This document shows, one piece after another, positions 3,700 through 25,356 of a stretch of DNA of 25,598 bases. Positions within the stretch are counted from its first letter, which is position 1, and each line of letters begins with the position of its first letter. The position numbers were made by a program, and so were the translations under genes. The DNA lies in IMG/VR virus record IMGVR_UViG_3300031585_000004, positions 1 through 25,598 of that record. One strand, given 5' to 3'. The DNA is from a virus. The notes beneath the pieces were generated by a model, which saw only the letters and a list, made by a program, of their open reading frames with translations, ran no database searches and was not told where the DNA came from.

Positions 3700-5055
3700 A
3701 TGGGATGGTTTCGCAACTGGCGTGCCAAGCGCCAGGCGCACCGAGAACTCAACCGAGCGTTGAAGCAGGTCGATGAGTCGCGCGGTGGGCTGACTTCGTT
3801 TGAGTCGATGCCGGCCCCCCGGGCCGACGGGTTTATGCGGCTTGCCCAGTTCTCCAATTCACAACTTGTTGACAACCTTGAGGCGAGCGTCTGGGCGTAC
3901 TCCTGCATCACGGGAAACGCAGAAGCAATCGCGAGCCTGCCGGGGATCGTTCAGAAGCCCGGCAAGAAGGGCGCGGACAAGTGGGTTGAGGACAGCGGCA
4001 ACCACCCGTTGAATACCTTCCTTGCCCAGCCCCTCGGAAACGATTACAGCAACGCCCCCCGGTGGAGCTGGCAACAGTTGATAGAGGTGATCTGTCTCCA
4101 GGTTCCACTGGCCGGGAACGCCTACCTGATTCCCATATGGTTGGATAGTGGCAATCGGTTGGCTGTTCAGCTTATTCTGGATCCGTCGGCCATCGAGGCG
4201 AAGACGGATAAACACGGTTTCCCGATCCTCTACCGCCACCAAATCAGCGGGCAGGAATGGACACCGGACGAAATCTGCAACATCCAAAACGCTCACCCGT
4301 CGAGTTTTTGGAAGGGCCACGTGCCGCTTTCCGCAGCTTGGCGGGATATCCAGATGGACAAGACGGCGCACGAGCGCCAAGTCTACAATCTCAAGAACCG
4401 GATCGGGCAGGGGTTGCTTATCAAGGAAGACAGTTTTTTCGGGCCGGATGAAGAAAAAAACGCCCGGTTACTTGCTCGTCTCAAAGCGAATTACACAGCC
4501 AGTACACAGGACGGCACGCCGCTTGTGATGAGCAGCCGGACTGAGTTTGGAACTATTCCACAGCAGGGTTACGCAGACGAACTCACGAAGATCCGGAGTT
4601 ACGCACAGTCCGGAAACCTCGCCGCGCTCAAGACGCCACCCCCCATTATTGGGCAGTACGACAACGCAACCCTTCAGAACTTCAGCACGGCCACAAAAAT
4701 CTGGTGGATGAACTGTCTCTTCCCGCTGGCAGGTTCCATTTACAACGCCATCAACACGCAGATCATCCGGAAACGCTGGCCCAAGATGCGGCTCTGGTAC
4801 GACATCACTGGCAGCGACATTGGGTTGCTTGTGTTGCTGGATCGAATCGGGGCCGCAAAAGCTCTGACAGATCTTGGCTACAACACAAACGTTGCAGCGG
4901 CCCGGGTGGGTCTGGGAATGGAATACGATCCGCAACTCGACAAGCCGAACCGAGACATTGAAAAGGCCGGGCGGGAAGAAACGACACCAAAGGAAACGCC
5001 CATCGAGGAACCGGCGGCGGATGAAGAGAAACCCAAACCGGCGGTGCTGGGATGA
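3700..5055 (+). CDS. phage portal protein, HK97 type
   Basis: 451 residues, the usual size for the family. The portal forms the dodecameric ring at one head vertex through which DNA enters and to which the connectors bind. Recognisable are an N-terminal region with the family pattern VWAYSCITGNAEAIASLPG (residues about 66-84), PLAGNAYLIPI, and the core NRIGQGLLIK...GNLAALKTPPPIIGQYD with the following FSTATKIWWMNCLFPL helix. The last 45 residues are Lys/Glu/Pro-rich and probably disordered. The ATG at 3700 has only GGGG directly upstream, so initiation looks weak for a head gene. The 3' end overlaps the protease start (ATGATAG). Confidence 0.93.
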   Translation: MGWFRNWRAKRQAHRELNRALKQVDESRGGLTSFESMPAPRADGFMRLAQFSNSQLVDNLEASVWAYSCITGNAEAIASLPGIVQKPGKKGADKWVEDSGNHPLNTFLAQPLGNDYSNAPRWSWQQLIEVICLQVPLAGNAYLIPIWLDSGNRLAVQLILDPSAIEAKTDKHGFPILYRHQISGQEWTPDEICNIQNAHPSSFWKGHVPLSAAWRDIQMDKTAHERQVYNLKNRIGQGLLIKEDSFFGPDEEKNARLLARLKANYTASTQDGTPLVMSSRTEFGTIPQQGYADELTKIRSYAQSGNLAALKTPPPIIGQYDNATLQNFSTATKIWWMNCLFPLAGSIYNAINTQIIRKRWPKMRLWYDITGSDIGLLVLLDRIGAAKALTDLGYNTNVAAARVGLGMEYDPQLDKPNRDIEKAGREETTPKETPIEEPAADEEKPKPAVLG

Positions 5056-9884: not shown

Positions 9885-10979
9885 ATGACTTGGGACGGAA
9901 ACATCACGGTAAACATTCTGAGCGGAGCGCAAGCAGTTCAGCGCAAGGTGCTCGGGGTTCCGCTTCACTACACGGCTGATGTGACTTTTGCGGCCGATCT
10001 GGTGAAGCAGTACAACACACCACAAGCCGCGATCGATGACACGGAATTGGGCACCACCGCACAAGCGGCGGTTGCCGGATTCTTTGCCCAGACTCCACGG
10101 CCTCCACATGTTCTGGTGGGCAAGGACACCAAGAACGCGGCCGATTACGATCAGCCGGACGTAGCTCTCGCGGCGATCATTGCCGAAAATCCGGACTTCT
10201 ACGCTTTCGATTGCGCGTCAAGAGTGGAAGCGGACATTCTTGCCGTCGCCGCCGCAGCGGAATCATTGGATCGGTTGTTTCTCGGGCAAAGTTCAGACGC
10301 CGGGATTCTTGCGGCAACTGCAGAGAACGTAGCGGAAGACCTACAAGGTTTCGCCTACACACGGACGGGCCTGCTTTACCACGCAACCGACACGGCGCAC
10401 GCCGCCTTTGCCTGGCTTGCCGCGAAACTCGCCGCGAACCCGGACACCACATCAACCATCTGGGCGTATGAAACCCTCGTTGGTTTCACGCCTGACACCC
10501 TGGACGACACGCCGCATGAAAACTGCGTTGATCAGTATTGCAATACTTACGAAACGCTCGGGGGCGTTGGCGCTACTGGGCAGGGCATTCTTGCCGACGG
10601 TAACCGGATCGATACCCTGATCGTCAAAGACTGGTTCAAGGCTCGGGTGTCCGAGGGGATTGCACAATTGCTTTTGGACGCATCGGCCCGCCACACCAAG
10701 ATCCCGTACACACAGGCCGGACTATGGCAAATCGCCCAGGTATTGATCAACGTTGCCGGCCGCGGGCGGCCGAAAGAAGAAACACCGGCGGGCCCCGGCG
10801 GTGGGATCGGACATTTCGCATACCGGCCAAGCGGTGAGATCATCGACATCGACGTGCCGCTGATTGCCGATGTTGATCCGGCGGACATCGCCGCACGCAA
10901 GGCGACGATTTCCGGAACCGTGACACTTGCCGGCGCGATTGAAGAAGTCACGATCAACGTTGCCGTTCTGAACAGCTAA
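9885..10979 (+). CDS. tail sheath protein (contractile tail)
   Basis: 364 residues with a strong ribosome site (GAGGTGA at 9872-9878) as expected for an abundant protein. The sequence matches the sheath family often labelled DUF3383: early TFAADLVKQYNTPQAAIDD, FFAQTPRPPHVLVGK (residues about 66-80), a central domain with AAKLAANPDTTSTIWAYETL, and the conserved end GHFAYRPSGEIIDIDVPLI...ISGTVTLAGAIEEVTINVAVLNS. Contraction of the sheath drives the tube through the host envelope. This gene, together with the tube next to it, is what makes the phage a myovirus. Confidence 0.85.
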   Translation: MTWDGNITVNILSGAQAVQRKVLGVPLHYTADVTFAADLVKQYNTPQAAIDDTELGTTAQAAVAGFFAQTPRPPHVLVGKDTKNAADYDQPDVALAAIIAENPDFYAFDCASRVEADILAVAAAAESLDRLFLGQSSDAGILAATAENVAEDLQGFAYTRTGLLYHATDTAHAAFAWLAAKLAANPDTTSTIWAYETLVGFTPDTLDDTPHENCVDQYCNTYETLGGVGATGQGILADGNRIDTLIVKDWFKARVSEGIAQLLLDASARHTKIPYTQAGLWQIAQVLINVAGRGRPKEETPAGPGGGIGHFAYRPSGEIIDIDVPLIADVDPADIAARKATISGTVTLAGAIEEVTINVAVLNS

Positions 10980-10991
10980 GGAGGCTGACCA

Positions 10992-11423
10992 ATGGCCACA
11001 AGAAACTACAGCCTTGACGATGTCTACTTGACGATCGCGGGGCAACTCATCACTGAGTTTTCCGACGGTGACGCCATCGAAATCGAGTACGACGAAGATG
11101 ACACCGTTGAGACTCAGGGAACCCACGGATCCGTGATGGTGTCGGAACGGCCGAACAACATTGTGTCGTGCACGATTCGGCTAATGCAGGGGTCGCCGCT
11201 CAACTCGTTCATGTGGGATCTGCGGAAATCCAAGCGCATGAGCGGGCAGATTTCGTTTGACTTCATGATGCGGGACAACCGAGGCGAACTCATGGTGACC
11301 ACGCCGCAAGCGTGGATCAAAAAACCGGCGGCGCTCGGCACCGGCACGGAACCCGGTAACCGTGAATGGACGCTGAAACTGAGCAGCCCGCAACCAAAGG
11401 ACGGTGAGAACGTTCTCGCCTAG
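10992..11423 (+). CDS. tail tube protein
   Basis: 143 residues. Beta-rich, of the DUF3277-like tube type: YSLDDVYLTIAGQLITEFSDGDAIEIEYDED opening (residues 5-36), GTHGSVMVSERPNNIVSCTIRLMQGSPLN in the middle, and AWIKKPA...NREWTLKLSS at the end. It stacks in rings inside the sheath. AAGGAGG (10978-10984) overlaps the sheath stop codon, so the gene is well expressed and sits only 12 bases downstream, the canonical sheath-tube order. Confidence 0.8.
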   Translation: MATRNYSLDDVYLTIAGQLITEFSDGDAIEIEYDEDDTVETQGTHGSVMVSERPNNIVSCTIRLMQGSPLNSFMWDLRKSKRMSGQISFDFMMRDNRGELMVTTPQAWIKKPAALGTGTEPGNREWTLKLSSPQPKDGENVLA

Positions 11424-11448: not shown

Positions 11449-11991
11449 ATGCCGACCAGGCAATTCAAAACCACCCTGAAAGACGCGGATGGCGTTGATC
11501 ACGCCTACTCTTGCGCCAGTTTCCCAACGAAAAAAAGCGGCAACCTGCTTTTGGAGATCGTGGAGATTGTAAGCGGTCCGATCGGAAACGCCGTGTCGAT
11601 GCTGTTCAATGGCCGTGACAATGAGGACGGGCCGAACCTGTCAGATCTTCCCGTTGCGCTCAGAGACATTCCACAGATGATCTTGGCCAAGGGCGGGATG
11701 GACTTTATCCAACGGATCCTTTCCAACTGCCGGCGGAACAGTAACACCAAAGACAACGCAGGTAAGGAGGTCTGGCATCACCTCAACAACGATGCAGACT
11801 TTGACAACGTCTACGCTGGAAATCTCAAAGAGATGTTCGAGGCGGTGTACTGGGTTGTGATCGGGGTGAACTACGGCCCTTTTTTCGCGGTGAATACGGA
11901 AGAATTGAGCGGGCTTTGGAACGAGCTGCGGAGCTTCATCCGGACAGGACAGATCCCGACAGACGAAACGACGATCGAGCCCGAGAGCTAG
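11449..11991 (+). CDS. tail assembly chaperone, short (G-like) form
   Basis: 180 residues, AGGAGGGG ribosome site upstream of the ATG at 11449. It lies between the tube and tape measure genes, the position of lambda G/GT and Mu gp41/gp42 type chaperones that coat the tape measure during tail assembly. The protein starts with a beta hairpin (RQFKTTLKDADGVDHAYSCASFPTKKS) and continues helical. At codons 144-146 it carries CCT TTT TTC, giving the in-frame heptamer T TTT TTC at 11880-11886. A -1 shift there continues into the reading frame that ends at 12203, giving a longer GT form of about 251 residues. The zero-frame product ends 35 residues after the site. Confidence 0.75.
   Translation: MPTRQFKTTLKDADGVDHAYSCASFPTKKSGNLLLEIVEIVSGPIGNAVSMLFNGRDNEDGPNLSDLPVALRDIPQMILAKGGMDFIQRILSNCRRNSNTKDNAGKEVWHHLNNDADFDNVYAGNLKEMFEAVYWVVIGVNYGPFFAVNTEELSGLWNELRSFIRTGQIPTDETTIEPES
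11880..11886 (+). promoter_or_regulatory. predicted -1 ribosomal frameshift site (T TTT TTC)
   Basis: The heptamer lies in the correct phase (codon boundaries ccT TTT TTC) inside the chaperone gene. The -1 frame is open from here through the T-like frame to 12203. Conserved frameshifting at this position is established for tail assembly genes of many dsDNA phages. The only start-like codon of the second frame (TTG 11916) has no ribosome site, which fits expression by frameshift. A stimulatory hairpin downstream was not obvious. Confidence 0.7.
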
Positions 11992-12203
11992 CACGGGAGG
12001 CGGCCTACAAGAAACGGCGAGACACGATGATGGAAGCGTTGGCCAAAGGGTTGGAGGGTTCTCGGTTTCGCGGCTCCGCGTTTCATTGGGTCACCACCGT
12101 CGGCGGGCACGATCCAACCGTTGTTGAGCGAGACTGGGACTTGGTCCAGCTCTACGATCACTATTACGATCTCCGCATCAAGGATCTCATGGAGTCCGCA
12201 TAG
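11886..12203 (+). CDS. tail assembly chaperone, T-like extension made by -1 frameshift
   Basis: About 105 residues in the -1 frame of the preceding gene, expected only as the C-terminal part of the GT fusion. It is basic and helical at first (ERALERAAELHP, ARELAREAAYKKRRDTMMEALAKGLEG), then carries FHWVTTVGGHDPTVVERDWDLVQLYDHYYDLRIKDLMES. The T domain binds tube subunits in lambda; a similar role is inferred here. The next gene starts inside the stop region (TAGTG). Confidence 0.68.
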   Translation, partial: RGEYGRIERALERAAELHPDRTDPDRRNDDRARELAREAAYKKRRDTMMEALAKGLEGSRFRGSAFHWVTTVGGHDPTVVERDWDLVQLYDHYYDLRIKDLMESA

Positions 12204-14098
12204 TGCCCGTTCTCCGTTCCATACTTACCAAGTTTGGTTTTACGGTCGAGGGGGGAAAGCTTGTCCACATCGATCAACAGGTGGGTGCTGTCAAGCGCCG
12301 CCTGAACGCGGCGACACGACAGGCGCGGGCCTTTCGGCGGGAACTTGGATCCACCGCCAACATGCTGCGGTACGCGGCCTATGCATTTGTTGGTTCGCGT
12401 GTGGTCAAGGCATTCACAACGGGCTATGCGGACGCAGCGGATGCAGCGGCGAAGATGTCCAAGGCAATGGGCATCAACGTTGAAACCTATCAGGCACTTG
12501 GTCATGCGGCCGGCATTTCCGGGGCGTCACAAGAAGACGTGGCCAAAGCCCTGATGCAGTTGGGCAAGCGGGCCCGTGACGCCTCAATGGGTCTCAAGGC
12601 CCAGAAGATTGCTTTCCAAGAATTGAATATCCAGGTCAAGGATTCCAACGGCAACCTGAAAAACCAGGATGTTCTTTTGCTGGAGGCCGCCGACGCTTTC
12701 AAAAAGATGCCAGACGGCACGCGCAAGACGGCCCTTGCAATGGAACTTTTCGGACGGGCAGGCGCCAAGATCATTCCGTTGCTCAATGAGGGATCCGGCG
12801 GCATCAAGGCGCTGATGCTCGAAGCAAAGAGACTCGGGATCGTTTTATCGTCGAAGGCATCAAAAGACGCTGAACTTTTCAACGATGAACTGCGCCGTGT
12901 CAAGGGGATTTTTCTCGGTATCCGAAACACAATTGCCGCGCAACTTCTGCCCAAACTCACAGAGCTGATTACCCGCTTTAAGGATTGGTACCTGGAGGGA
13001 AATAACGCACAGATCTTTTTTGCCAAGTTGAAAAAATGGGCGCGAATCGCCGGGGCCGCGCTTGCCGGCGTTGTCGGCTCAAAGGTGATCACCGGGTTTA
13101 TGTCTCTTGGCCGGGCGGTCATGGCGGGTGTTTCCGCCCTGCGTCTCATGGCGGGAGCAAGTGCGTTGGCCATGGGCAAGATCGGTTTGATTCTCGTGGC
13201 CATCGGCGGATTGATTGCACTGGCCAAGGATTTCAGTCAGGCCGGTACAATGTTCGACAGCATGAAAACCATGGCCGCCGATGTCTGGACCACGCTTAAA
13301 CCGGCCTTGATGGATTTGGCGAAAGCGTTGATCCCTGTCCTTGTCGGCCTCTGGGATATTGTGAAGCCGTTGATCCCATACGTTGTCAAGTTGCTGGTGT
13401 TTCTCATTGCGGTGTTCGGGGATTTGCTAAAGATGCTGGCCATCTTTCTGAAGGGCGCAGTCAAAGTTTTCAAGGCGCTCGCTAAAGCGTGGAAGATCGC
13501 AGTCAATGCGATGGTTAGTGTTCTCGATCTCATCGTGGATGGGTGGAACGCAATCATAGACGGCATCAAGGCCATGTTCGACGGCATCAAAGATGCGTGG
13601 GACTCGACGATCGGCGCATTGATTGAAAAGGTCCAAGAACTTCTTGCGCCGTTTAAGTGGATATTCTCAAAGATCGAGAAATTTCTGGACGCAACAATCG
13701 GGCGCATTGATCGTAAAATCAACTGGGTTGTGAAAAAATACACTTGGATGAAAAACAAGGTTGGGCTTGGGAAAGGTGACTTTGTTCCAGATCAGGAAAC
13801 GCAGCGGTTGATAAAAGAAGCAGAGAGATCAAACAGGCCAAGAGAGGCCGTTCCGGGCGGAATAAAACCATTGTTGCCGCCCGAACAACCGTTAACAACT
13901 AGAGGCGGCCCGTCTGGAGTGAGGCCAGTGATCGGGGGGCCGCGGATTTCGGTTGGCGCTGTCAAGGTTGACATCGCCGGCAGCACCAACATGAACTCAC
14001 CAGAGGTGCAAGACGCGGTTGAGAAGGGTGCACGCCGCGCACTAAAAAAAGTGATCCGTGAAAGTTATCGAGATCTGAGACCGGAACCGGCAACATGA
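12203..14098 (+). CDS. tail tape measure protein
   Basis: 631 residues, GTG start sharing one base with the previous stop (TAGTG). It sets tail length and is ejected with the DNA. The sequence shows a long helical N-terminal part (VKRRLNAATRQARAFRRELG, MSKAMGINVETYQALGHAAGISGASQEDVAKALMQL) typical of tape measures. Hydrophobic segments follow at residues about 285-345 (AGAALAGVVGSKVITGFMS..., KIGLILVAIGGLIALAKDF) and about 385-430 (LWDIVKPLIPYVVKLLVFLIAVFGDLLKML). The last 110 residues are Pro/Gly-rich and end in a basic helix. It is the longest gene of the window and lies directly after the chaperone pair, as in nearly all tailed phages. Confidence 0.85.
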   Translation: MPVLRSILTKFGFTVEGGKLVHIDQQVGAVKRRLNAATRQARAFRRELGSTANMLRYAAYAFVGSRVVKAFTTGYADAADAAAKMSKAMGINVETYQALGHAAGISGASQEDVAKALMQLGKRARDASMGLKAQKIAFQELNIQVKDSNGNLKNQDVLLLEAADAFKKMPDGTRKTALAMELFGRAGAKIIPLLNEGSGGIKALMLEAKRLGIVLSSKASKDAELFNDELRRVKGIFLGIRNTIAAQLLPKLTELITRFKDWYLEGNNAQIFFAKLKKWARIAGAALAGVVGSKVITGFMSLGRAVMAGVSALRLMAGASALAMGKIGLILVAIGGLIALAKDFSQAGTMFDSMKTMAADVWTTLKPALMDLAKALIPVLVGLWDIVKPLIPYVVKLLVFLIAVFGDLLKMLAIFLKGAVKVFKALAKAWKIAVNAMVSVLDLIVDGWNAIIDGIKAMFDGIKDAWDSTIGALIEKVQELLAPFKWIFSKIEKFLDATIGRIDRKINWVVKKYTWMKNKVGLGKGDFVPDQETQRLIKEAERSNRPREAVPGGIKPLLPPEQPLTTRGGPSGVRPVIGGPRISVGAVKVDIAGSTNMNSPEVQDAVEKGARRALKKVIRESYRDLRPEPAT

Positions 14099-16877: not shown

Positions 16878-18064
16878 TGGCAACACGAGAAATCACAGCG
16901 GCCGGGATAACGGTCAAGACGTTGGCCGAAACTCGACAAGACATGGTGGACGCGATTCACGCCTCAAGCGAATTCGGCCCAGACGTGCCCACCGGGCCGG
17001 AGACTCCGGAGGGCCAGATCATCGGCGTTGTCGCCACCCAGATCAGCGAACTCGATGAACTGGCCCAGAGTGTTTACGACACAAGGGATCCGGATAACGC
17101 CACCGGGGCACCGCTCGACAACATCGGCGCATACTCGGGGGCCATCCGAAAGGACGGCACCTTTTCAACGGCCGTCGCAACGCTTGGCGGCACACCGTCA
17201 ACAGTGATCGCGGCTGGGAAGCGTGCCCGCGTTCCGGATGGGCCGATCTTTGCCATTGACGCTGAAGCAACGATCGGCGGCGGTGGTACCGTTGACGCCC
17301 CGGTAACCTGTACGGAAGATGGACCGAACGAAGCGGCGGCCGGGAGTATCACAGAGATCGTTGACGCGGTATCCGGTTGGGACACCGTAACAAACGCGGC
17401 AGACGCCACACTCGGCACCAACGACGAAACCGATCAGGAATTTCGGGATCGGCGTGAAGGTTCTTTTGCGCTCGGAGGCAATTGCACGGACCCGGCGATC
17501 CGCGCAAAGATGGAAGCACTTGCCGGAGTGACACACGCCACTTGCATCAGCAATCGGACATCCGTAACTGACGCCAACGGGATCCGGGGTAAGGGTTTCA
17601 TGGTGGTGCTATGGCCCACAGGGTTGGACGGGCCGACAGTTGCGGAGGCACTTTGGCCGTGTGTGGCAACGGCCGGAGACCCAAATGGTGATCAGGAATA
17701 CAACATCACTGATGATCAGGGGCAAACCCAGGTAATGCGGTTTCAGTACGCCGATGAGCAAGAAGTTTACCTACATGCCGAGGTGACGGAAAAAACCGGC
17801 TACCCGACCGACGGAGACGATCTGGTCAAGGCCGCATTGCTTGCTTTCGGAAATACGCACAACCCTGGCGATGACGTGGAACCGGACTTCTTTGAGGCTT
17901 ACGTATTAAAAGATCCGGATGACATGGTGGCAGGAATATCAGCGATCACGGTCACGGCGAAGATCGGCGGTGCTCCGGGTGCCGGTGATACCGATCCTAT
18001 TCCAATCGCCCTGACTGAGATTGCACGATTTGACTCAACGCGGATCACGGTGACGTCAACATGA
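16877..18064 (+). CDS. baseplate wedge protein J
   Basis: 395 residues. Baseplate J/gp6-type protein, the main wedge component. The hallmark GAPLDNIGAYSG lies near residue 76, followed by the beta domain GTFSTAVATLGG..STVIAAGKRARVPDG and the QEFRDRREGSFALGGNCTDPAIRAKMEALAGVTHATC segment (residues about 190-225). It ends with EARFDSTRITVT-like sequence (IARFDSTRITVTST), typical for the family. The start shares one base with the previous stop (TAATGG). Confidence 0.88.
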   Translation: MATREITAAGITVKTLAETRQDMVDAIHASSEFGPDVPTGPETPEGQIIGVVATQISELDELAQSVYDTRDPDNATGAPLDNIGAYSGAIRKDGTFSTAVATLGGTPSTVIAAGKRARVPDGPIFAIDAEATIGGGGTVDAPVTCTEDGPNEAAAGSITEIVDAVSGWDTVTNAADATLGTNDETDQEFRDRREGSFALGGNCTDPAIRAKMEALAGVTHATCISNRTSVTDANGIRGKGFMVVLWPTGLDGPTVAEALWPCVATAGDPNGDQEYNITDDQGQTQVMRFQYADEQEVYLHAEVTEKTGYPTDGDDLVKAALLAFGNTHNPGDDVEPDFFEAYVLKDPDDMVAGISAITVTAKIGGAPGAGDTDPIPIALTEIARFDSTRITVTST

Positions 18065-18627
18065 CGATGCCCGCTAAAATAACGGATCACGCAGCACAGG
18101 CCGTGGGCAATCTGCTTTCCCAGTTCAGGAATTCGGCACGACTGCAAGAGTTGATCAGCATCTTCAGCGCAGAGATCCAAAGCCTTGAAAACCTGTTCCA
18201 TGAACTTTACGACGAATGCACCCTTGACACGGCCGTAGGAGTGCAACTCGACATTGAAGGCAAGATTGTTGGATGGCCCCGGATGGGTCTTAGTGACGAC
18301 GATTACCGGGCAATGATCAAGGTCGCAATCGTAATCAACCAAACGCACGGGGACGCAGTAACGGCGACCTACATCATTTCACAGATTGTCGGCGCTCCGG
18401 TTCATTACAGATGGTCCGGGATGGCGCATTGTTCTTTTGAATGGGAGAAGTCGGCGCATTCGTCGGCGGACATCCAGACATTGATCCAGAGTATCCTTGA
18501 TAAGATTCTTGCAGCCGGGGTGTCGGCCCACTGCGTTGAAGGGATCACGGATTCTTTCAGATTCGACAACGGCCCGGGTTTCGACCAAGGCAAGCTGGGG
18601 AAACTTATTGCCCAGATAGGAGACTGA
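18061..18627 (+). CDS. baseplate wedge / tail protein, DUF2612-like (gpI position)
   Basis: 188 residues, ATGA overlap at 18061. The sequence matches DUF2612-type tail proteins: helical LLSQFRNSARLQELISIFSAEIQSLENLFHEL (residues about 16-47), then VGVQLDIEGKIVGWPRMGLSDDDYRAMIKVAIVINQTHGD (about 58-97). It occupies the gpI position between gpJ and the tail fibre, and probably holds the fibre on the wedge. Confidence 0.75.
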   Translation: MTMPAKITDHAAQAVGNLLSQFRNSARLQELISIFSAEIQSLENLFHELYDECTLDTAVGVQLDIEGKIVGWPRMGLSDDDYRAMIKVAIVINQTHGDAVTATYIISQIVGAPVHYRWSGMAHCSFEWEKSAHSSADIQTLIQSILDKILAAGVSAHCVEGITDSFRFDNGPGFDQGKLGKLIAQIGD

Positions 18628-24463: not shown

Positions 24464-24769
24464 TTACAAATCCTTAACGAGGGTGACCGGCAACCAAGAT
24501 GCACCACCGACAAACGTGTCACCGCTTCGACTGTACCGGTGGTCCCCGATAGAGTTTTTATCCACAAGGATGTGTCCGCTTTTGGGTTCCCTCGTGATCT
24601 TGAGCTGCACGGTGCCCCGGGGTCGGCGGTCGTAGGTGTACTTTCCATTGATCCACATGCGCCCATCCTTGTCTGCGAACATCGCCCACGGCACTGTGAA
24701 AAAGACGCCCTGTGGCATTTCATCGATGGTTTGCTCTTTCAACTGATCTGGTAGCTTGCTCTGTTCCAT
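24464..24769 (-). CDS. small conserved-looking protein of the minus-strand operon
   Basis: 101 residues from the ATG at 24769, chosen because the 21-bp start cassette (GGAAGGGACGGC) lies directly upstream. The N-terminus is short and polar (EQSKLPDQLKEQT). The rest looks like a single beta domain: PQGVFFTVPWAMFADKDGRMWINGKYTYDRRPRGTVQLKITREPKSGHILVDK, ending GGASWLPVTLVKDL. No family recognised. It overlaps a plus-strand proline-rich frame that I reject. Gene order and spacing (17 bases after the upstream stop) support an operon with the next two genes. Confidence 0.6.
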   Translation of the reverse strand: MEQSKLPDQLKEQTIDEMPQGVFFTVPWAMFADKDGRMWINGKYTYDRRPRGTVQLKITREPKSGHILVDKNSIGDHRYSRSGDTFVGGASWLPVTLVKDL

Positions 24770-24785
24770 GCCGTCCCTTCCTTTC
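24765..24785 (-). repeat. minus-strand gene-start cassette, copy A
   Basis: 21 bases identical to 25106-25126 and 25336-25356. Read on the minus strand it is GAAAGGAAGGGACGGC then ATGGA: a purine-rich Shine-Dalgarno plus start codon and first base of the second codon. Confidence 0.85.
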
Positions 24786-24786
24786 A

Positions 24787-25110
24787 CTAGTGCCGGGCCT
24801 TCTTGGCCCGTTTTTGCCCAACCTCAAAGGCTTCTCTGTCTGTGGGCGGGCCATTTGATGCACTGCCGAAAATGGGGTGTGTGCATCGAAACAGCCGCTC
24901 AACGCGCTCCCTGACTTTGTGGCTGTAGTACCCGGCGTAATACCCCAGGTTAGAGCGTTCGATCTGTTCCGCTTTGGCCCTATCGTAATCTTTATATCCA
25001 AAGGATAGGGTGTGCTGAACGCATTTTTCAAAATACCGATCCGCCTCATCTTGATCGTCGATTTCCATGGCCGGGCCGTACTTATCGCCTATCGTGATGT
25101 CCTTGTCCAT
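24787..25110 (-). CDS. conserved phage protein with YYAGYY and RCTHPIFG motifs
   Basis: 107 residues from the ATG at 25110 after the start cassette. The sequence DITIGDKYGPAMEIDDQDEADRYFEKCVQHTLSFGYK, then ERSNLGYYAGYYSHKVRERVERLFRCTHPIFGS and GPPTDREAFEVGQKR, matches from memory a small protein repeated in many phage genomes, where 'NLGYYAGYY' and 'RC.HPIFG' are nearly invariant. Its function is not known to me. It is helical and soluble. It is translated with its neighbours in a minus-strand operon convergent to the late genes. Confidence 0.7.
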   Translation of the reverse strand: MDKDITIGDKYGPAMEIDDQDEADRYFEKCVQHTLSFGYKDYDRAKAEQIERSNLGYYAGYYSHKVRERVERLFRCTHPIFGSASNGPPTDREAFEVGQKRAKKARH

Positions 25111-25126
25111 GCCGTCCCTTCCTTTC
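25106..25126 (-). repeat. minus-strand gene-start cassette, copy B
   Basis: Second identical 21-bp copy (Shine-Dalgarno GGAAGGG, GACGGC spacer, ATGGA). The upstream bases also agree with copy A for two more positions. Confidence 0.85.
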
Positions 25127-25130
25127 ACCA

Positions 25131-25340
25131 CTATCCGGGAATGCCAACATCCCATTCGTATGTTTCTGGACCGTCCTCGCCTTCCTGGTAAAGCCTCACC
25201 CAGTCATTGTACTCCGCTTCGCTGCCACAAAGGACACGCACCATCTGATCCAACACCCAGGCCTTGTGGTGGGCACCATCAATCTGACCGTATTGGTAAG
25301 CGATTTTCAGGGCCACCGTGACGCGCTGTTCGTGTTCCAT
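25131..25340 (-). CDS. small conserved phage protein, QIDGAHHKAWVLDQMVR type
   Basis: 69 residues from the ATG at 25340 after the start cassette; upstream in-frame codons run through a GC-rich gap without a ribosome site. The sequence ALKIAYQYGQIDGAHHKAWVLDQMVRVLCG (residues about 9-38), then YNDWVRLYQEGEDGPETYEWDVGIP, matches from memory a family of short phage proteins with 'YGQIDG.HHK.WVIDQMVR' and 'TYEWD.GI'. Function unknown. Helical at first, acidic at the end. Confidence 0.7.
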   Translation of the reverse strand: MEHEQRVTVALKIAYQYGQIDGAHHKAWVLDQMVRVLCGSEAEYNDWVRLYQEGEDGPETYEWDVGIPG

Positions 25341-25356
25341 GCCGTCCCTTCCTTTC
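25336..25356 (-). repeat. minus-strand gene-start cassette, copy C
   Basis: Third identical 21-bp copy. Beyond the 21 bases its upstream flank differs from copies A and B, which defines the cassette's edge. Confidence 0.85.

Follow-up and report, generated by a model that had tools for sequence, protein, structure and literature searches.

A probable programmed -1 ribosomal frameshift in the tail assembly chaperone gene of a contractile-tailed phage contig, with a conserved slip-like site across distant relatives

It is already known that the chaperone gene located between the tail tube and tape measure genes can undergo a -1 frameshift, as in lambda and P2 (PMC5009743, PMC3091744). For example, according to the available text of PMC3091744, the slip site of P2 E / E+E' is TTTTTTG, a sequence that is conserved in P2-like Burkholderia phages. 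More recently, a -1 frameshift has been argued for the tail assembly chaperone (TAC) locus of Vandenendeviridae on the basis of 56 alleles, with the motif GTTTTT also reported in Andersonviridae (Viruses 2025, PMC12846349, accessible sections), and further papers available as excerpts are PMC3711429, PMC10885494 and PMC3931495. Beyond PMC12846349, no earlier report of this TAC family or of its site was found in the open-access literature.

The window analysed here, that is, the whole stretch of DNA under study, is an IMG/VR virus contig of 25,598 bases that carries a contractile-tail gene cluster in the order sheath, tube, chaperone and tape measure (Table 1), the name of the tube gene being taken from gene order and from the annotation of relatives. 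The chaperone gene thus sits between the tube and tape measure genes, as is required of a G/GT-type chaperone. Its short product matches the Pfam family PF21822 (Phage_TAC_15) at E 4.2e-10 and 40.7 bits, against a curated cut-off of 22, and also matches phrog_1613 (E 1.8e-4). The family matches of sheath, tube and chaperone are of the DUF3383 / DUF3277 / TAC_15 type. The predicted fold of the short product (AlphaFold2, pLDDT 78, pTM 0.60) gave its best match with the predicted structure of a phage protein that carries the name 'tail assembly chaperone protein' (E 3.5e-6, TM 0.57/0.63), and a comparison with the PDB returned no solved structure at a Z of 5 or more. Elsewhere in the window, tandem small genes at 620-1474 have in common an 89-nt repeat (93% identical) that spans the ribosome site and start (repeats D1-D3), and a 24-nt repeat present three times at 24762-25356 (D4) lies, on the minus strand, over the start regions of three successive small ORFs.

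Table 1. Coordinates of the tail genes and of the features bearing on the proposed frameshift; positions are those of the window.
Feature	Position	Strand	Evidence or remark
Tail sheath (DUF3383)	9885..10979	+	phrog_205 E 7.5e-55; PF11863 E 1.1e-15
Tail tube (DUF3277 / KPP10_Orf10 family)	10992..11423	+	PF11681 E 2.5e-9; phrog_280 E 7.6e-30
Tail assembly chaperone (TAC), zero-frame short product, 180 aa	11449..11991	+	ATG; strong SD duplex, -10.7 kcal/mol; PF21822; phrog_1613
Candidate SD-like element CGGGGTG	11862..11868	+	anti-SD duplex -6.3 kcal/mol; spacing to T TTT TTC 11 nt, to C CCT TTT 8 nt
Overlapping slippery heptamer C CCT TTT	11877..11883	+	in phase
Slippery heptamer T TTT TTC	11880..11886	+	in phase; codons 145-146 of 180
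-1 frame extension, 105 codons + TAG; predicted C-terminal half of the 251-aa long chaperone	11886..12203	+	open frame; coding score
Candidate internal start ATG ATG, -1 frame	12027..12032	+	weak anti-SD duplex, -3.6 kcal/mol
Tape measure protein, GTG start	12203..14098	+	phrog_8462 E 1.6e-51; PF10145 E 2.3e-8

The letters at 11877-11886 are CCCTTTTTTC and are read as CCT TTT TTC in the frame of the chaperone. Counted from the ATG at 11449, TTT is codon 145 (11881-11883) and TTC is codon 146 (11884-11886), and T TTT TTC is therefore in the reading phase of the gene, as the preliminary description of this DNA had stated. A -1 slip on either C CCT TTT or T TTT TTC would give the same 251-residue fusion, in which the first codon after the slip is 11886-11888 and 105 codons of the -1 frame (11886-12200) are added to 146 of the zero frame. 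The -1 frame has no stop between 11805 and a TAG at 12201-12203, extends 209 nt beyond the chaperone stop and shares one base of its own stop with the GTG that starts the tape measure gene; the earlier reckoning of about 105 codons, ending just before the tape measure and yielding a fusion of 251 residues, was likewise borne out.

Taken by itself, the presence of TTTTTTC is weak evidence against chance, the sequence occurring 13 times on both strands of the window where 6.1 would be expected; the other in-phase copies of T TTT TTC, at 4434 and 22901, run into a -1 stop after 2-3 codons. CCT accounts for about 7% of the proline codons in the window. Among 21 window genes checked, three others (102-674, 671-1078 and 18061-18627) likewise contain an X XXY YYZ in the reading phase, followed by a -1 frame that outruns the gene's own stop; in the first two this frame enters the next ORF, and in the third it extends 257 nt and crosses the beginning of the next gene in a different phase. 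An open -1 frame in one phage proves little as well, because such frames are common in control genes of the loci compared, 49% of 317 being open for at least 100 nt past the stop. It is the combination of these features in one gene, together with the conservation of that combination, that exceeds chance.

In this regard, the region 11992-12200, which follows the end of the zero frame, has the character of coding sequence when read in the -1 frame. Its codon log-odds score is 18.6 over 69 codons, and its remaining five frames score 6.7 or less; for comparison, 76 pieces of window genes read in their proper frame have a median of 21.8, and pieces read in a wrong frame do not exceed 9.6. The GC content by codon position points in the same direction (0.62/0.41/0.73 versus 0.60/0.44/0.66 in window genes).

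The identity of the -1 half was also explored. The -1 product of the window gave no match in PHROGs, Pfam or phage records (0 families), and no significant match, either whole or as its C-terminal part alone, to a profile of the -1 products of 33 relatives; pairwise shuffle tests were not significant (33 comparisons; highest Z 2.2, mean 0.18). A C-terminal domain common with the relatives is unsupported for the window phage because its -1 half matches neither a family nor the 33-relative profile, and homology between these halves was rejected as unproven on the profile and shuffle results. A multiple alignment nonetheless sets the end of the window -1 half (VVERDW..LVQLY..) in register with those of the relatives, and its predicted model consists mostly of long helices (pLDDT 77.6, pTM 0.37). 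Among the relatives themselves, phrog_4364, a family with no function listed, matches 13 of 17 -1 products (alignment A10, L018-L045) and looks, judging from these sequence matches, like a piece of the long chaperone rather than a separate protein.

Relatives were gathered from two sources, annotated phages similar in sheath and tube and IMG/VR records retrieved with alignments of these two proteins, and their chaperones were located by a profile that was first built from tube-to-tape-measure genes picked by position or annotation. The first scan covered 47 sources, of which 44 gave a match and three (L009, L012, L013) did not. After removal of a copy of the window (L001) and merging of identical proteins, 34 distinct TACs remained, the window included, and three added later brought the sample to 37; L009, L012, L013, L047, L048 and L052, which have no TAC_15 match, lie outside it, and by their letters L050 repeats L010 and L054 repeats L053. 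All 21 proteins of alignment A9, window included, match PF21822 at E up to 0.01. No close relative of the window phage was found by its TAC, terminase, baseplate J or tube proteins in viral contigs, or by sheath alignment A4 or tube alignment A6 in genome contigs, and a comparison of the TAC with phage records gave a single weak match, to Bacillus phage Adastra (E 0.06).

Across this sample, a slip-like T-rich or CCT-TTY site at the aligned codons, followed by an open -1 frame, is present in all 37 distinct TACs. The site is T TTT TTN in 20, four of which also carry C CCT TTT (the window, phiEt88, MII_001 and RHph_I36); it is C CCT TTY only in four (DIBBI, which is L005, and L032, L041 and L043), G GGT TTT in one, G GTT TTT in four (L017, L008, L011, L003) and G GAT TTT TCN in eight (L020, L027, L028, L030, L031, L033, L037, L038). 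The last two classes, 12 of the 37 sites, depart from X XXY YYZ. The residue preceding the conserved Phe varies (Pro, Cys, Asp, Arg, Ser or Gly), and T is the third base of its codon in 30 of 34 TACs, where 13.1 would be expected from the codon usage of each locus; the Phe codon itself is TTT in 28 of 30 (12.5 expected). The expectation set out beforehand, that relatives would keep the heptamer as flanking codons vary, is thus matched by these counts, with alternative sites occupying the same codons in the 17 TACs that do not carry T TTT TTN.

The architecture is conserved to a similar degree. The -1 frame continues past the chaperone stop for 104-275 nt in each of the 34 TACs and for 158-215 nt in the three added ones, and the median for the +1 frame in the 34 is near 37 nt. 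In the overlap between site and chaperone stop, the 34 TACs contain no -1 stop in 929 codons, where the frequency of stops in the remaining long ORFs of these loci predicts 57.8; with one TAC per 40%-identity cluster there is again none, in 587 codons for which 33.1 would be expected (P about 1e-15, assuming independent codons). The last -1 stop upstream lies at most 15 nt before the site in 10 of the 37, and the slip would therefore be confined to the site in those ten; for seven of the 12 sites that are not X XXY YYZ, an upstream -1 stop 9-15 nt before them means that the shift would have to take place at or after that point. In 33 of the 37 the start of the next long ORF is no more than 55 nt from the -1 stop; in L053 the distance is 283 nt, and three have no long ORF in the available locus.

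A different chaperone gene is present in L009:3946-4390 (Paenibacillus phage Pd_22F), L047:6447-6931 and L012:3938-4502 (Funu2). The chaperone of Pd_22F (90 aa) has a protein-like +1 frame of 63 codons that reaches almost to the tape measure gene, and Funu2 has a +1 frame of 52 codons, which suggests, from the frames themselves, that a +1 (or -2) shift may operate in related tail modules.

Taken together, these observations make it very probable that a programmed -1 ribosomal frameshift in the PF21822-type TAC gene yields a short and a long chaperone, and the comparison across 37 TACs supports the G/GT-type reading given in the preliminary description, with the fusion protein itself as a prediction. 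Most ribosomes would stay in the zero frame and make the 180-residue chaperone, and a minority, whose P-site and A-site tRNAs are those for CCT-TTT or TTT-TTC, would slip back one base on the decameric site and read 105 further codons to give the 251-residue form, which would end where the tape measure gene starts. The two forms may, by analogy, have the roles of lambda gpG and gpGT described in the accessible part of a review (PMC5009743), in which case the short form would coat the tape measure protein and the long form, the rarer of the two, would recruit tube subunits.

What might stimulate such a slip is suggested by the sequence upstream of the site. The element CGGGGTG of the window is a possible dnaX-type stimulator and would probably aid the slip by pairing with the anti-SD of the ribosome; in dnaX, according to the available text of PMC5009743, the upstream SD acts together with a stem-loop. 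Across the 34 TACs, anti-SD pairing 6-18 nt upstream of the site, with a mean of -4.28 kcal/mol, beats that in most of the gene. Resampling in which synonymous codons were drawn by locus usage gave a mean of -2.50 (sd 0.48) for 21 cluster representatives, compared with -4.53 observed, a value reached in 0/1000 resamples, and none of eight control offsets was comparable (lowest 12/300). For the window alone, 88/1000 resamples were equally good, so that its element is not significant singly, and several relatives, e.g. L005, L027, L034 and L044, are without one. Downstream RNA structure in the window was not significant (z -0.48 to +1.53 in four stretches and -0.82 in another test), and across the 34 TACs it was mixed (mean z -0.79). 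On balance, these data lean towards a two-part conserved signal in PF21822 chaperones instead of a single heptamer, consisting of an SD-like element about 8-12 nt upstream and a T-rich slip point, in which lineages would have swapped the slip sequence among five classes and of which the window would be a member with two overlapping canonical sites.

Among the alternatives, the one that survives best, although it is improbable, holds that the -1 stretch is a separate small gene, read from the ATG at 12027 or 12030 or by re-initiation after the chaperone stop at 11991, and that the heptamer is incidental. The SD pairing of ATG ATG at 12027 is as weak as that of several window gene starts (-2.6 to -3.7), the deposited annotation of several relatives treats such stretches as hypothetical genes in their own right, and the -1 half of the window is not significantly similar to the frameshifted halves of the relatives. 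The earlier statement that the second frame has no usable start with a ribosome site was in this respect slightly too strong: both ATG codons exist, and what stands is that their pairing is weak, which leaves the start at 12027 a weak candidate source of a separate 58-residue piece. However, a separate gene would leave unexplained both the open -1 frame across the site-to-stop overlap in all 34 TACs and the conserved T-rich site, and the separate starts annotated in relatives vary in position.

A far smaller probability attaches to a sequencing or assembly indel that split one continuous chaperone gene. Six-T homopolymers, such as the one at the window site, are places where indel errors arise, but as a general cause such an error is refuted by the relatives, since the 37 distinct TACs, drawn from many phages and metagenomes, are all split at these codons, and the zero frame keeps its high GC third position to its own stop (0.49/0.43/0.76, 11881-11991). 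Equally unlikely is transcriptional rather than ribosomal slippage as the source of the fusion: the six-T run is present, but RNA polymerase slippage usually needs a longer run, and the architecture persists in four relatives with C CCT TTY, whose T runs are short (four T's in L005 and L032, three in L041 and L043).

Programmed -1 ribosomal frameshifting therefore remains the preferred reading, and its implications extend beyond this contig. It would put right the annotation of a gene commonly entered as two, a chaperone and a hypothetical protein, would give phrog_4364 a place as the frameshifted half of these chaperones, and would widen -1 frameshifting, for which the case was made in two phage families in 2025, to many mostly uncultivated contractile-tailed phages. 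It also brings out as candidates the atypical slip sites and an SD-like stimulator, whose strength upstream of the site, beyond what synonymous resampling predicts, appears to be new; no earlier report of the SD-like excess or of the G GAT TTT TCN class was found in the open-access literature.

Several known systems can be set beside this locus. Lambda has a slip sequence that differs from that of the window. As predicted for the window, its gpG and gpGT are two chaperone forms made from one start through a -1 slip (PMC5009743), and the comparison is one of analogy. The mention of Mu-like phages in the preliminary description appears to be a poor pointer, the sheath and tube matches being to phages of Pakpunavirus, Otagovirus, Vequintavirinae, Kleczkowskavirus and Dibbivirus type. 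P2 resembles the window in its T6 run, its -1 shift and the production of two tail proteins from one start between the major tail and tape measure genes, and, within the available text of PMC3091744, P2-like phages resemble it in that no downstream hairpin was found; P2 E and E+E' are, however, shorter (91 and 142 aa versus 180 and 251), and the likeness to the PF21822 gene is one of arrangement. Pseudomonas phage Adele and other Vandenendeviridae and Andersonviridae have, in the published portions at hand, a chaperone upstream of the tape measure gene, a -1 frame open through the locus and a T-rich site shortly before the first frame ends, as in the window, but the Adele-type motif is GTTTTT and not an XXXYYYZ heptamer. 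TACs from members of Pakpunavirus, Otagovirus and Flaumdravirus (PAK_P4, UNO-G1W1, Bobbio, KIL2) align with that of the window and have the site position in common, although the window TAC is only about 20% identical to them. Finally, Rhizobium phage RHph_I36 (Kleczkowskavirus, L010) carries the identical codons GGC CCT TTT TTC, the same gene order and a -1 extension of 206 nt past the stop compared with 209 in the window, at identities of about 20% for the TAC, 26% for the sheath and 29% for the tube. To these systems the window would add a distant member with a canonical T6C site that overlaps C CCT TTT.
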